From NCBI GenBank assembly GCA_958296405.1, contig OY282519.1:248001-312000 (forward strand): 64,000 nt of DNA. The letters run 5' to 3'. Below, piece by piece: positions 59,203 through 64,000 of the stretch. The translations under genes were made by a program, and so were the position numbers. This stretch comes from an uncultured Pseudomonadales bacterium. GTDB taxonomy: Bacteria; Pseudomonadota; Gammaproteobacteria; Pseudomonadales; Azotimanducaceae. How positions within the stretch are numbered: the first letter of the stretch is position 1; each line of letters opens with the position of its first letter. The notes under the pieces were generated by a model, which worked only from the letters and a program-made list of their open reading frames with translations, searched no databases and was not told the DNA's origin.

Positions 59203-61740
59203 CTAGATGCGGTAGCCGAACTGCAGGCCGTAGGTGCGTGGACGCCCGAAGCGGTAGCCCACCTGATTCAGCTCGTAGATGATTACCTCGTCCGTCACGT
59301 TGCGGACATAGGCAGACACCTGCCAGCCAGAGCGCCTCATCGTGAGGCGCAAATCCACCGTCTCGTACGCCGGGGCAGGACGCTCGTTGTTGGCCGTGTT
59401 CCAAGATTCAGCGATGGCGTAGGCGTCTGCCCGCGCCGTGGCGTCGTAGCCCATGAGTTGGAAGTCGTAAACGAGCGACGCGTTGAAGCTGTACTCCGGC
59501 GCGTTGGCGAGCCGGTTGCCCGGTTGGATGCCCACGCCCAGATAGCGGCCAGCGGCAGAGGCGTAGATGTCCGCTTCCCAGTTGTAGTCTCCACCGAAGT
59601 TGAAGCGCAGCGAATCCGTGATGGTGGTTTGCACTTCAAACTCCATCCCCTCGCTGCGCGCATCGCCGGAGTTGCGGTTGTATTGGAAGCCAAGCGGCTC
59701 GACCGACGGGAACTCGGGCAAATCCTCCCGCACGGCGATGATGGTATCGACCCAATCGATCCGATACAGGGCGCCCACGAAGCTCATCCGGCCGTCTGCC
59801 AAGGTCGCCTTCACGCCGAACTCATAGTTCTGCGCCTCGTCACCATCAATGGTTTGCAAGCCCCCCAAGCGATCAATCTCCGCTTGGGCGGAGGCCCTCC
59901 GCGCCGCGGATTCCTCATCGTCGGCCAGCACTGCCCGAAACCGCGAGATGGTGCCGGCGAGGGTGGTGTTGACGATGCCGGGCCGAAATCCTTGCGAGTA
60001 GGTGAAGTAGAGCATCCAGTCGTCCTGCGGCCGCCATGTCACAGTGACCTTGGGTGACGTGACTTTCGTGACGACCTCCAGCTCGTTCAACGGACCGCGC
60101 TTGGTGTCGACGCCCGGTTGGGCGACGATCAGCTCGTAGCTCACGTCCGCGTAGCGGGCGCCGACCAGCACCTCCCAAGCATCGCTGAGCTGGTACGTCA
60201 CCTCCCCGAACACCGCCTGTTCGCCGAACGACAAGTAGTTTGTGTTGCCGGGAACGATGCCATTGAGGAAGCCGACGATGGCGGCCTGCTGATCGAGCGG
60301 CACTTCCGGATAGAAGTTGTATTGCAGCCAGCAGTGGGTATCGAGAGTGTCGTACACCGGCGGCCCGCCATTGTGGCAGCCCCGGTGATGGCCAGTTTGC
60401 GTTTCGTCATCCTTGTAGTAGGCGCCCGCCGTCCACTTCCAGCGGCTGTCCGTGTTGGAGACGAAGCGGAACTCTTGCACGAAGCGTTCCGTGCCGCTGA
60501 AGAAGGCGCCATCGCCGCCTAGGCCCGTCATCTTGGTGCGGCCGTCCGCCTGCGCCCCAAAGGCGGCCGTGGCCGCACCGATGAGACCGAGGGCAAACCG
60601 TGGGCTGGTCTCTTCCGAGTAATCCCGCTCGCGATCAAACCACGAGGTGGAAGAGATGAAATCGGCAAAGGAGAACTCCCAATCGATCTCGAAGTTGTAC
60701 ATCGCCGCATCGTCGTAGCCACCGCTTTGGTGGTTCCAATGCGCCAAATCAGAAATGTACGGGTCGTCCTTGAACTGCTCGAACTCGCCTCGGGTGTAGT
60801 AGTCCGCCGCCCAATCCGCTTGACGCGGCGTGCAATCCGGACGCGCCGGCAACGGATAGACATGCACCTGCCCAGACGGATCCGATGGGGTGGACTCATT
60901 GAAGCAGTGGAACGCGAGGCCGGGGCCGCCATAGTCTCCATCCACGAGGTTCACCATCGCGGAGATTTCAAGGGCGTCGTTCACATACCAAGCGATCTTC
61001 ACGCGGCCGCCAATCTCTTCAAAGGTGTCCGTGTCTTTCTTGTTCCGGGGCGCGGCTTGGTCGATGACGCCCTTACGGTCGCGCTTGTAGGCGACGATGC
61101 GCGCCGCGAACCGGTCGCTCAACGGAATGTTGACCATGCCGTCCGTGCGGTACGAAATGCCGCTCGATTCGCCGATGGCCTCCATTTCCAAGCGGGCGTT
61201 CCAATCGAAGCCGCTCACATCCGGCTTCTTGGTGATGTAGCGCAGCGCACCGCCCATGGCACCCTCGCCGTAAAGGGTGCCCTGCGGCCCCTTCAGCACT
61301 TCCACCCGCTCCAAGTCGAACAGCGGCCCGATGGTTTGCGCGAGGCCGCCGACCCCGGAATCTGTGATGGGCATGTTGTCGAAGTAGACGCCAACGGTGG
61401 CGGCGCCCCCGCCGGCCGGCGGCGTGATGCCGCGCACGGTGAGCGTGTTGTAAGTCTGCGAGTTGGTGCGGTAAGCGAGGCCAGGGATGGACTGGTACAG
61501 GGTTTGGATGTCCTCAATGCCCTTGTTCACGATGTCTTGGTCGGTGACGGCCGAGATCGTGAGCGGCGTGTCCATCAGACGGGTGTCTCGATAGGTGGCG
61601 GAGACGATGATCTCCTCTACCTCGCCAGCATCGTTTTCTGCTTCTTCCTCGGCTTGGGCCGGCACGAAAATCGCAGCCAAAGAAGCCAATGCCAGCAGGC
61701 GCCAAGCCAATCCGCGCCGTTCAATATCACCGCTTCGCAT
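59203..61740 (-). CDS. TonB-dependent outer-membrane receptor
   Basis: An 845-residue receptor. The signal (LLALASLAAIFVPAQA) is followed by a TonB-box-like EVEEIIVSATYRDTRL. The plug has LTVRGITPPAGGGAATVGVY and VEVLKGPQGTLYGEGAMGGA, as in iron-chelate and complex-nutrient receptors common in marine and sphingomonad-type bacteria. Barrel segments include DAWEVLVGARYADVSYEL and LYFTYSQGFRPGIVN. The start at 61740 has GGGGGAAG before it. A perfect TTGACA lies upstream at 61804-61799. It ends QFGYRI, without a final Phe. Confidence 0.92.
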   Translation of the reverse strand: MRSGDIERRGLAWRLLALASLAAIFVPAQAEEEAENDAGEVEEIIVSATYRDTRLMDTPLTISAVTDQDIVNKGIEDIQTLYQSIPGLAYRTNSQTYNTLTVRGITPPAGGGAATVGVYFDNMPITDSGVGGLAQTIGPLFDLERVEVLKGPQGTLYGEGAMGGALRYITKKPDVSGFDWNARLEMEAIGESSGISYRTDGMVNIPLSDRFAARIVAYKRDRKGVIDQAAPRNKKDTDTFEEIGGRVKIAWYVNDALEISAMVNLVDGDYGGPGLAFHCFNESTPSDPSGQVHVYPLPARPDCTPRQADWAADYYTRGEFEQFKDDPYISDLAHWNHQSGGYDDAAMYNFEIDWEFSFADFISSTSWFDRERDYSEETSPRFALGLIGAATAAFGAQADGRTKMTGLGGDGAFFSGTERFVQEFRFVSNTDSRWKWTAGAYYKDDETQTGHHRGCHNGGPPVYDTLDTHCWLQYNFYPEVPLDQQAAIVGFLNGIVPGNTNYLSFGEQAVFGEVTYQLSDAWEVLVGARYADVSYELIVAQPGVDTKRGPLNELEVVTKVTSPKVTVTWRPQDDWMLYFTYSQGFRPGIVNTTLAGTISRFRAVLADDEESAARRASAQAEIDRLGGLQTIDGDEAQNYEFGVKATLADGRMSFVGALYRIDWVDTIIAVREDLPEFPSVEPLGFQYNRNSGDARSEGMEFEVQTTITDSLRFNFGGDYNWEADIYASAAGRYLGVGIQPGNRLANAPEYSFNASLVYDFQLMGYDATARADAYAIAESWNTANNERPAPAYETVDLRLTMRRSGWQVSAYVRNVTDEVIIYELNQVGYRFGRPRTYGLQFGYRI

Positions 61741-61934
61741 CGCTTCCCCCTTGATGTCTTGCAGTAAGCCGTTGCTTGTTCGCATAGGCCACAGGGGTTG
61801 TCAAGGGCCGGTGCGGGGTGAGCGGGAGCACTCGCACGGCCCCGTTCTTGGTTTGCCCGTCCCTTCAGCGAACCAGCCACTCCAGCAAGCGGCTGGACAG
61901 ATCCCGGCGAGCATCGAGGATCGCCATGATTCGC

Positions 61935-62843
61935 TCAGGCTGACGATTGACGTTGCCATCGGGCACCTTGAAAACGGTTCGGACAGTCCATGAGATCGTA
62001 GCCGAAGTAGCCCAAGGTGTCCTGATGTTCCCGGAACACGCGGTTGAACGCCGCGATTTGCCCGGCGTCCAGACAGGTGATCTGGCGTTCGTTCATGTCG
62101 GTCAACATTTCGTCGTAGTCCTTCGCCTTGAGGCGGCGGCGCAGGATCAAATCGTCCAGTTCCGGCACGAGGGTTTGGATCGTCCGGGCGGCCCCCTCGG
62201 GATCTGCGCACATGGTCTCGTAGGTGAAGAAGACACCGCGTTCCCGGTGCGTTTCGACATTGCGGCGCTGCCAGGCGAGGCAGTTGGCGACGTGGGTCGC
62301 GGCCGCCGCCGGCAGGCTCCTGCCCGACGTCTCGAACTGGCGTTGGTAATGCGCCGAGAGCCGGGTCCGGTAGCGCCGGCAGATGCCTTCGCAGACGGCG
62401 TAGGGGTTGCGCACCATGAACACGAACCGGGCGTTGCGGAAATGCCGGACCAGTTGCTCCACATGCAGCAGGTGCTGGGTGGACTTGGTGACGAACACCG
62501 AGGCGTCCGGGGCATGGGCGCGGGCGTGGAAGTACCACGCCTTGCGGGTGCGCGGCCAGTCGTAGCTGCTCGGCTGCGTGAAGAGGTCGAGCCAGCTCCG
62601 CTCCGACGCCCACAGCAGGCCGGGGAACCATTGCTCGCCCTCTGGGCCGCCCAGGGCTCGATAGGTCACCGGCCCGGCGAAGCCGCGTATCATCTGGCCT
62701 TCCCACGGCAGCCGCCACGTCGCGCGGCAGGACTCCAGCGCGGCGGTGAGGAACGACGAGCCGCTGTTGTTCGGACAGACGACGAACAGATGCGTCCCGA
62801 TCACGGTCGCGAGGTCGCGGTCGGCGCCGGGGACGTAGTTCAT
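61935..62843 (-). CDS. sulfotransferase-family protein
   Basis: A 302-residue PAPS-type sulfotransferase. The 5'-phosphosulfate loop is FVVCPNNSGSSFLTAALES (residues about 20-38). The 3'-phosphate site is RFVFMVRNPYAVCEGICRRY. A C-terminal RVFREHQDTLGYFGYDL is common in these proteins. It overlaps the glycosyltransferase stop by ATGA, so both act together. The likely acceptor is a glycan or peptide made by this locus. Confidence 0.88.
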   Translation of the reverse strand: MNYVPGADRDLATVIGTHLFVVCPNNSGSSFLTAALESCRATWRLPWEGQMIRGFAGPVTYRALGGPEGEQWFPGLLWASERSWLDLFTQPSSYDWPRTRKAWYFHARAHAPDASVFVTKSTQHLLHVEQLVRHFRNARFVFMVRNPYAVCEGICRRYRTRLSAHYQRQFETSGRSLPAAAATHVANCLAWQRRNVETHRERGVFFTYETMCADPEGAARTIQTLVPELDDLILRRRLKAKDYDEMLTDMNERQITCLDAGQIAAFNRVFREHQDTLGYFGYDLMDCPNRFQGARWQRQSSA

Positions 62844-63805
62844 TCCCTGTTCCCGGCGAGCCTGTCCCCGGCGCTGCGCACGTGCGCGTCCGCCAGGCAG
62901 CCCACATAGGCGTCATACCAGAGCCTGAAGGCATCCACGGGCTTGCGTTTGGGGTCGCCCTGCGTCCAGCGGAGCATGGCCTCCGGCATCCAGGGTTTGA
63001 CGGGCCCGGCGAAATGCAGCGTCCTGGCGTTTCCGGCGTCGACGCCCTCTCGCGCATGAATCGCCTCGGCCATGGGGACCACGAAGTCGTAGGTCCAGCC
63101 CACCAGCGTCTGGCGCCCGGCAAAGTGGCGGTTCAGGATGAGCTGGTCCGTATGGGTGGTGGCGGCGCCGGACCAGGACTGCGGCGCCACCAGGTCCAGG
63201 AGTTCCGTGTAGCAGCCTTCCTCCACGAGCCCCGCGTCGATGAGCAGGAAGCCGGCGCCGAAGGTGCGCTCGAGCACGCCTGCCGCGCCGGGCGGTCGTG
63301 CGGGGGGCAGGGGCGCGAAGGTGGCGGCGTCGCGTCGCGCGCCGCGCAGGAACACGTCGTCGCCGCAGCACAGCAACGCTGCGGGCGAGTCGAACAGGTC
63401 GGCGACGGAGGCTTGGAACAGGACGTCGCTGTCGTAGAACAGCACCTTGCGGTAGCCGCGCAGGCGGAAGGCTTCGAGGGAGTAGAGCTGCCCCAGCCTG
63501 GGTGCGAGTTCCGGGCGGGCGGCGCCCAGGGCGGCCAGCCGGTCGTGCAATTCGGGGGAGATGGGCTCGAAGCGCACGCGGGGGCAGGCCTGCGAGAGAT
63601 GTCGGCGGTGGGCTTCGGGCAGCGCGTCGTGGACGACGACGAGGTCGCCGCCGAAGCCGGGGTGGTGTTTCAGGAAAGAGCCGAGGGCGACGAGCGTGCC
63701 CGGCACGAAGCGCTCCGTGGTGGCGGTGACGAAGCAGATCTCCTTTGCGGCGTGCCCGCATGGAGGAGTTGCGTCAAGAGTCAAGGGAACCCCTTGAGGG
63801 AGCAC
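62840..63805 (-). CDS. GT8-like glycosyltransferase
   Basis: A 321-residue protein with a GT-A fold: ICFVTATTERFVPGTLVALG at the start, FRLRGYRKVLFYDSDVLFQ containing the DxD metal motif, LERTFGAGFLLIDAGL, and a C-terminal THTDQLILNRHFAG with HFAGPVKPWM, as in glycogenin/GT8 enzymes (HFxGxxKPW). It starts with GTG at 63805, 26 bases after the stop of the small peptide gene, and is coupled to the sulfotransferase. It should transfer a sugar, perhaps to the adjacent peptide. Confidence 0.88.
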   Translation of the reverse strand: MLPQGVPLTLDATPPCGHAAKEICFVTATTERFVPGTLVALGSFLKHHPGFGGDLVVVHDALPEAHRRHLSQACPRVRFEPISPELHDRLAALGAARPELAPRLGQLYSLEAFRLRGYRKVLFYDSDVLFQASVADLFDSPAALLCCGDDVFLRGARRDAATFAPLPPARPPGAAGVLERTFGAGFLLIDAGLVEEGCYTELLDLVAPQSWSGAATTHTDQLILNRHFAGRQTLVGWTYDFVVPMAEAIHAREGVDAGNARTLHFAGPVKPWMPEAMLRWTQGDPKRKPVDAFRLWYDAYVGCLADAHVRSAGDRLAGNRE

Positions 63806-63831: not shown

Positions 63832-63975
63832 TTATGACGTCGGGTGGTAAGTAGCGTTTTCGACCACCGGATCGGGATCGGTTCCGCTTTGCGTCTCCAG
63901 GGTGCCGTCCTCTATCCGGAGAATGCGTGGCTTGGACCACACCTTCTTCGGCGCGTCGGCGACCGCTTCATTTTC
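63832..63975 (-). CDS. C-terminal part of a small RiPP-precursor-like peptide (partial)
   Basis: Leftward frame, open into the G run at the window end, giving the last 47 residues before a TAA. It reads APKKVWSKPRILRIEDG, then TLETQSG, then TDPDPVVENATYHPTS. The KKxWxxPxI segment resembles the leader motif bound by RRE domains in lasso and related peptides. A glycine followed nine residues later by Glu would allow a nine-member lasso ring, though the expected Thr is at -3 rather than -2. W..KP with a later ExxxY also recalls PqqA. The start lies beyond the artefact, so length is unknown. It sits just upstream of a glycosyltransferase and sulfotransferase. Confidence 0.5.
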   Translation of the reverse strand, partial: ENEAVADAPKKVWSKPRILRIEDGTLETQSGTDPDPVVENATYHPTS

Positions 63976-63995
63976 GGGGGGGGGGGGGGGGGGGG
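63976..63995. repeat. 20-base G homopolymer at the contig end
   Basis: An uninterrupted G run five bases from the window end. Runs of this kind are typical of two-colour sequencing read ends. It breaks the peptide gene and is probably not genomic. Confidence 0.7.
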
Positions 63996-64000
63996 TACTT

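Follow-up and report, generated by a model that had tools for sequence, protein, structure and literature searches.

Precursor gene at the window edge

The window, i.e., the whole stretch of 64,000 nucleotides analysed here, corresponds to bases 248001-312000 of a genome consisting of one contig of 3,825,434 bases (G000:C1, in whose coordinates loci outside the window are given). At its edge a small minus-strand frame (63832-63999), which reads STPPPPPPENEAVADAPKKVWSKPRILRIEDGTLETQSGTDPDPVVENATYHPTS, is still open; the part of the gene inside the window is 63832..64000. On the continued chromosome it runs 8 bases further to an in-frame ATG at window position 64008, whereby the whole gene, copy 3 of three, encodes a lasso-type precursor of 58 aa with 55 residues inside the window. 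The first-pass annotation had recognized a truncated precursor-like peptide here, and the ORF is indeed cut by the window border; the tail of a long ordinary protein, which it had named as the finding that would speak against this, was dropped in view of the nearby ATG. The frame is open over 109 codons from stop to stop, i.e., beyond the chosen ATG, and the 58-aa start was preferred because it is preceded by a ribosome-site-like GGAGG and is common to all three tandem copies. The frame is confirmed to be real and not a chance one, as its leader is shared by 18 frames of the genome and by 51 distinct precursor sequences over the fetched loci.

The leader carries the motif KKVWSKPRI (W-x-K-P-x-I; 63922..63948, minus strand), the counterpart of the lasso YxxPxL motif. 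The predicted core GTDPDPVVENATYHPTS (63835..63885, minus strand) comprises Gly1, Glu9, an ExxxY element (E-N-A-T-Y) and a C-terminal Ser, so that the earlier reading of the leader motif, of the Gly-Glu spacing and of the ExxxY was correct, and Gly1-Glu9 agrees with the lasso pattern of a first residue with an acid at 7-9. The first residue of the core is uncertain, the Ser preceding Gly being a possible alternative. The Thr at -3, taken earlier as a departure from standard lasso precursors, does sit three residues before Gly; with Ser as residue 1 it falls at the usual -2 and Glu is then at 10.

The precursor stop lies 26 bases before the GTG of the next frame at 63805, as had been stated, although the true start of that gene is uncertain. 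It encodes a GT8 glycosyltransferase (62840..63805, minus strand; Pfam Glyco_transf_8, 2.4e-13) and is followed by a sulfotransferase gene (61935..62843, minus strand; Sulfotransfer_3, 6.3e-15), both predicted to be tailoring enzymes. The nearest relative of the GT8 in a profile search was glycogenin (E 3.3e-12), an enzyme that glucosylates its own Tyr. Its structure model also had glycogenin as the closest solved relatives, in agreement with the profile search, and this fold match is weak since the mean pLDDT was 58. The sulfotransferase model (mean pLDDT 73) had human TPST1 as the top fold match (E 1.8e-5, TM ~0.5, 16% identity, rmsd 7.5), with tyrosylprotein sulfotransferases among the best (rmsd 6.4-8.3 A) and CurM fourth. 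Its profile search returned only CurM and a polyketide synthase sulfotransferase (E 0.004 and 0.009); hence, the likeness to tyrosylprotein sulfotransferases comes from the fold search. Downstream of the cassette, a TonB-dependent receptor is encoded at 59203-61785, which may be unrelated or a peptide uptake receptor.

Upstream of the window copy there are two further precursor copies in tandem units of ~480 bases; beyond them, as named by eye, come groEL and a groES-like frame. In this region (L009, G000:C1:312.2-313.2 kb), each unit combines the last groEL codons and terminator with a precursor and the first part of GT8. The duplication joint is between the groEL tail and the GT8 start, and GT8 fragments were left behind. 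Because every unit repeats these same three parts, it is probable that the cassette first came to stand behind groEL and was then duplicated into the array. A promoter scan of the tandem region found no sigma-70-type promoter.

Precursor family

When 13 aligned precursors were used to search the genome, 24 matches at E <= 10 were obtained, of which 18, including the 13 query rows, were taken as precursor-like (E <= 2.8e-4). The six left out were a 587-aa frame on a poly-C tract (4.2e-4) and five matches at 0.045-0.66. Over all fetched loci, 51 distinct precursor sequences were obtained from eight genomes, one of them merely a 16-residue fragment. Clear members occur in the relatives G008 (OY282379.1), G044 (OY282460.1) and G083 (OY282447.1), and further ones in OY282455.1, OY282353.1, OY282378.1 and OY282433.1. 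When the leader alignment was run against 195 genomes, 17 had matches at E <= 0.1, while at <= 1e-7 only the genome itself, G008, G044 and G083 remained. Of 390 genomes of the order, three, counting the own genome, had the pattern of tract plus leader (see below).

The leader consensus is W-x-[KR]-P-x-[ILV], with W and P invariant in 13/13 rows; it thus has the form of the YxxPxL-type RRE motif of lasso leaders (PMC10368454) with Trp in place of Tyr. The distinct leader-core tails number 48. A Gly with Asp/Glu at 7-9 is present in 38 of them, five have the acid only at 10 and five have no suitable Gly; the C-terminal Ser is found in 41. In the Gly1 register, residue -2 is variable across the family, with Thr often one place further upstream. 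The E-x3-Y element recurs in 34 of the 51 distinct precursors, which makes the core Tyr a plausible target of tailoring. No model passed its cut-off in the NCBIfam scan of three precursors or the Pfam scan of two, and the Pfam matches to Pap_E4 and DUF7169 were set aside as chance-level.

In seven chosen pairs, ~61.5 nonsynonymous changes (325 sites) and ~10.5 synonymous ones (104 sites) were counted in the cores; the corresponding numbers for the leaders were 12 and 4, over about 273 and 84 sites. The nonsynonymous excess in the cores had a p of 0.02 (one-sided binomial test against the site ratio, counts rounded to 62/72). As the pairs were chosen by hand, share rows and are not independent, this is only an indication that the cores change fast, more than the leaders and mostly by nonsynonymous substitution.

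Poly-C tracts

The most unusual feature of the window locus is the poly-C tract. The poly-Pro run of the precursor is encoded by an uninterrupted C20 (63976..63995, minus strand; G20 on the plus strand), a point that the first-pass annotation had left unremarked and that is proposed here to be a slippage switch. All three tandem copies have such pure C tracts, of 17, 20 and 20, directly after the start segment. The genome has 37 C tracts >= 12 against 0.02 expected from a simple geometric extrapolation of run lengths in one 64-kb window, and 14 of them are within precursor frames, before the leader. Across the family, a tract of at least 9 C (C9-C33) stands between start and leader in 30 of the 51 distinct precursors, from five genomes. 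The other 21 are without it; a poly-Pro stretch is therefore not needed. Most tracts are pure C, with one T each in L004 and L066. Since CCC makes up only 24% of the Pro codons in the window genes (CCG/CCA/CCT 76%), uninterrupted CCC runs point to a role of the DNA itself and not to Pro coding. Tracts >= 12 are not universal in the group, as their number in seven other genomes decreases from 10 (G008, G002) through 7 (G005), 5 (G044) and 1 (G004, G083) to none (G013); the drafts G002 and G005 have tracts without clear precursors.

Further tracts of the own genome are associated, as judged by eye, with Calx-beta-like repeat proteins, a glycosyltransferase pair and an O-antigen-ligase-like gene, as well as with a rhamnosyltransferase-GT8 junction and an LRR protein, and some have no clear gene around them or stand outside the called ones. 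Tracts of 21-26 are at or in the Calx-beta-like proteins ('SVTEG' repeat, by eye) at 1166154, 2861845, 2866335 and 3756752, which are possibly phase-variable surface proteins. The junction of the rhamnosyltransferase-like and GT8 genes at 857017 has a C22 tract, and tailoring itself may thus be switched. Long tracts also stand just before an LRR/metalloprotease-like gene at 318189 and a gene with a similar start at 451374 (by eye); the flank of the latter is related to that at 181666. At 841004 and 3433009, tracts have start-like flanks and no precursor was found behind either, the former having 91 bases in common with the upstream flank of the precursor tract at 3433583. Spread of the tract by one mobile repeat was rejected after flank-against-flank BLAST of all 37, in which only a few related groups share flanks. 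A role of the tract as a joint for exchanging start segments had been suggested by an alignment of the window cassette with OY282455.1 that stops at the tract; it was dropped because unit 2 and L090 align ~100 bases past the tract, at lower identity.

The tract is a homopolymer whose length sets the reading frame, as phase variation requires. A precursor was counted as in frame if an ATG within 45 bases before the tract was in frame with no stop. By this rule, 17 of the 30 tract-bearing precursors from five genomes are in frame and 13 out, with leader and core intact in both; the window locus enters these 30 and the 51 with its whole copy and not with its cut one. Edge cases counted in frame are L004 (C18-T-C10; unusual upstream ATG), L014 (C22; second ATG) and L061 (ATG 41 bases upstream), and L090 was counted out despite an in-frame GTG. 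Both frame states thus exist with an intact downstream frame, as read on single assembly consensus sequences in which long homopolymers are hard to call. All three copies at the window locus are in frame, without an off state. In two pairs, the state also changes between orthologs (C19 out and C22 in; C13 out and C21 in). A duplicate in OY282455.1 differs over 2,536 columns by two substitutions, two single-base indels and the tract, C25 in one copy and C33 in the other (8 C), both out of frame by the ATG rule. Duplicates with C9 (1065 and 3444 kb) have the same tract length, and short tracts may therefore be stable.

Maturation genes

Elsewhere in the genome there is a set of candidate lasso-type maturation genes. 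B2 (824720-826624) is a 635-aa protein (own gene call) with an N-terminal NTP_transf_5 domain, a fusion that recalls the separate PsmN of pseudomycoidin. It reached 67.5 bits with NF033537 (cut-off 33) and is the sole PF13471 match over the cut-off, one further weak match being at 2586981. An ABC exporter gene follows, the two spanning 824.7-828.6 kb. Two PqqD matches over the Pfam cut-off (853.9 and 838.6 kb) represent B1; the one tested had TbiB1 as the best solved relative in the PDB (1.5e-15) and scored 61.8 with NF033536, i.e., below the cut-off of 80. Seven lasso-cyclase-like C genes are located at 835, 871, 876, 890, 1744, 2284 and 3440 kb. Six of them, scored whole, fitted the lasso cyclase model NF033535 best, above asparagine synthase, with 187-356 bits against a cut-off of 525. 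No C gene in the whole genome passed the lasso cyclase cut-off, and below the cut-off this model also matches in 9 of 14 control genomes. HprK-like kinase domains gave weak matches in the genome. Similar genes of ~524-538 aa (MSAPDDGAAKRRLPIGIQTF...) stand three in a row beside lasso cassettes at 893772-898637 and occur also at L011, L055 and L056.

At the window cassette the maturases do not cluster with the precursor. The core synthetase genes had been expected just outside the window, where instead the tandem copies and the groEL and groES-like frames are found; B1, B2 and C genes had no match at this cassette, B1 and B2 being ~510-540 kb (B2 ~513 kb) and the nearest C ~523 kb away. At this distance, B1 and B2 would have to act in trans. 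In comparison, the paralogous cassettes L011, L012 and L014 have a scored C gene within ~2 kb of the precursor, and a PqqD-like and a C-like gene, recognized by eye, are within about 0.1-6.5 kb of it at L055 and L057 of G044. Lack of any RRE or maturase gene within 10 kb in homologous loci, which would have counted against the initial proposal, is thus not what these five loci have. Overall, assignment of the family to lasso-type RiPPs is well supported by the 18 precursor-like frames, the seven C-like genes, the two PqqD/B1 genes and the one B2 over cut-off. The earlier interpretation of the window frame is in this way partly supported: a precursor adjoining tailoring genes in a genome with B1, B2, an exporter and cyclase-like genes is retained, while the adjacent synthetase is not.

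Phase-variable tailored peptides as the preferred reading

We consider it fairly probable that the locus belongs to a dispersed family of precursors for phase-variable, tailored lasso-type peptides served by trans-acting maturases. Many members, the window copy among them, have a short start segment that leads into a run of 9-33 C, and then the W-x-K-P-x-I leader; their core varies, has Gly and, 7-9 residues further, an acid, and usually ends with Ser. Copying slips in the long C run near the start probably switch each tract-bearing peptide on and off, whereby slippage would bring the start codon into the frame of leader and core or shift it out of that frame, each such precursor being switched by itself. 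In the on state, judging from the families present, a PqqD/B1 protein would bind the leader, B2 would cut it and one of the seven C proteins encoded elsewhere would close the ring. The adjoining GT8 and sulfotransferase, and HprK-like kinases acting in trans, may then decorate the core, most likely at the conserved Tyr and the C-terminal Ser; export of the product is likewise putative. Counting against this reading are tract lengths that come from assembly consensus sequences, the C genes below the cut-off of a model that also matches in control genomes, the absence of Thr at -2 in the Gly1 register, the precursors left unnamed by NCBIfam and Pfam, the tested B1 below NF033536, the weak kinase matches, the lack of a local maturase and of an off state at the window locus, the 10 of 48 tails without Gly and an acid at 7-9, the precursors without a tract and the tracts in G002 and G005.

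The frame states could alternatively come from sequencing. If the poly-Pro segment were a fixed part of the precursors, the tract would always be in frame in the cell and the out-of-frame copies would be homopolymer errors, which are common in assemblies; the uniformly in-frame window locus and the in-frame majority (17/30) agree with this. Fixed poly-Pro would, however, tolerate the three other Pro codons, yet most tracts are pure C; it also does not account for tracts that are part of no clear or called gene, or for the tract-free precursors, and the 8-base difference in the OY282455.1 duplicate was judged to be more than usual miscalling. We therefore regard it as unlikely. It is hardly likely that the precursor-GT8-sulfotransferase unit simply spread as mobile DNA with many copies now dying as functionless pseudogenes. 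In favour of it, the placement of the unit varies, with two distinct contexts in OY282455.1 and a position behind groEL at the window locus; the GT8 or sulfotransferase frame is short in some copies, and GT8 fragments were left by the tandem duplication. Still, the leaders are conserved and the cores usually end with Ser even in out-of-frame copies, and the mostly nonsynonymous core changes, exceeding those of the leaders in the seven chosen, non-independent pairs, are unlike neutral decay.

The third question concerns the product class. PqqD, B2 and asparagine-synthetase-like enzymes might also make a RiPP with no threaded lasso, e.g., a glyco-sulfated macrolactam, as the C genes under the lasso cut-off and the ten tails with the acid only at 10 or with no suitable Gly would allow; moreover, GT8 and sulfotransferase adjoin the precursor, a combination that none of the paper titles listed for lasso peptides with sulfotransferase, kinase and glycosyltransferase names. 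Against this, B2 scores above the cut-off of a lasso-specific model, TbiB1 is the match of B1 and the lasso cyclase is the best model for the six scored C genes, which makes a different class rather improbable.

An extension of the preferred reading, phase-variable lasso-type peptides with shared maturases, is put forward tentatively. The 14 precursors of the own genome with tracts >= 12 C might form a contingency repertoire, switching independently by poly-C slippage while sharing one B2 and a few B1 and C proteins in trans. With decoration by TPST-like sulfotransferases and glycogenin-like GT8 enzymes, every cell would then have a particular mix of Tyr-sulfated or glycosylated lassos, and surface proteins with the same kind of tract would vary in phase beside them. 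If true, modified RiPPs would join adhesins, glycans and gonococcal bacteriocin-like peptides as phase-variable traits, with a direct route to test cell-by-cell diversification of a bacterial small-molecule repertoire. The family would also be a rich natural source of leader-core pairs for B1, B2 and C acting in trans, and of candidate Tyr-sulfated lasso peptides. Mining restricted to precursors beside synthetases, or to intact ORFs, would miss many of them.

Comparison with known systems

The locus combines known parts in a new arrangement. The phosphorylated and glycosylated lassos of the paeninodin (PadeK) and pseudomycoidin (PsmK/PsmN) type (PMC9266682) are alike in the split B1/B2, the conserved C-terminal Ser, on which PadeK-type kinases act, the HprK-like kinase genes (here weak matches in the genome) and the nucleotidyltransferase domain, here fused to B2. 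In contrast to the systems described in the excerpt of that paper, the window cassette is without local maturases, has GT8 and sulfotransferase beside it and is one of many dispersed precursors, with a poly-C tract. BsfA precursors with Ile(-2) (PMC10368454) are likewise Gram-negative and kinase-associated and depart from Thr(-2), with Gly1 and an acid at 8; in the family described here residue -2 is variable and Thr often stands one place upstream, and the excerpt of that paper does not mention a tract for BsfA.

Among the matches listed, no paper title concerned phase-variable lasso peptides or other RiPPs. For switched peptide genes in general there is a precedent, since the bacteriocin-like NapR/NapC peptides of Neisseria gonorrhoeae, whose ORFs have homopolymeric tracts of differing length, are likely phase variable according to the authors (PMC11798529). 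Those are island-encoded bacteriocin-like peptides for which the available part of the paper does not mention lasso maturation, whereas here a large family of modified-peptide precursors is concerned. In Campylobacter, surface glycan genes are phase-varied and the G/C tracts are mostly inside ORFs; C. jejuni has 18-39 phase-variable genes per strain, a range near the 37 tracts found here (PMC8355987). There, as far as the excerpt of that paper goes, the genes are mainly those of capsule, lipooligosaccharide and flagella, while in the present genome the tracts are found in RiPP precursors too.
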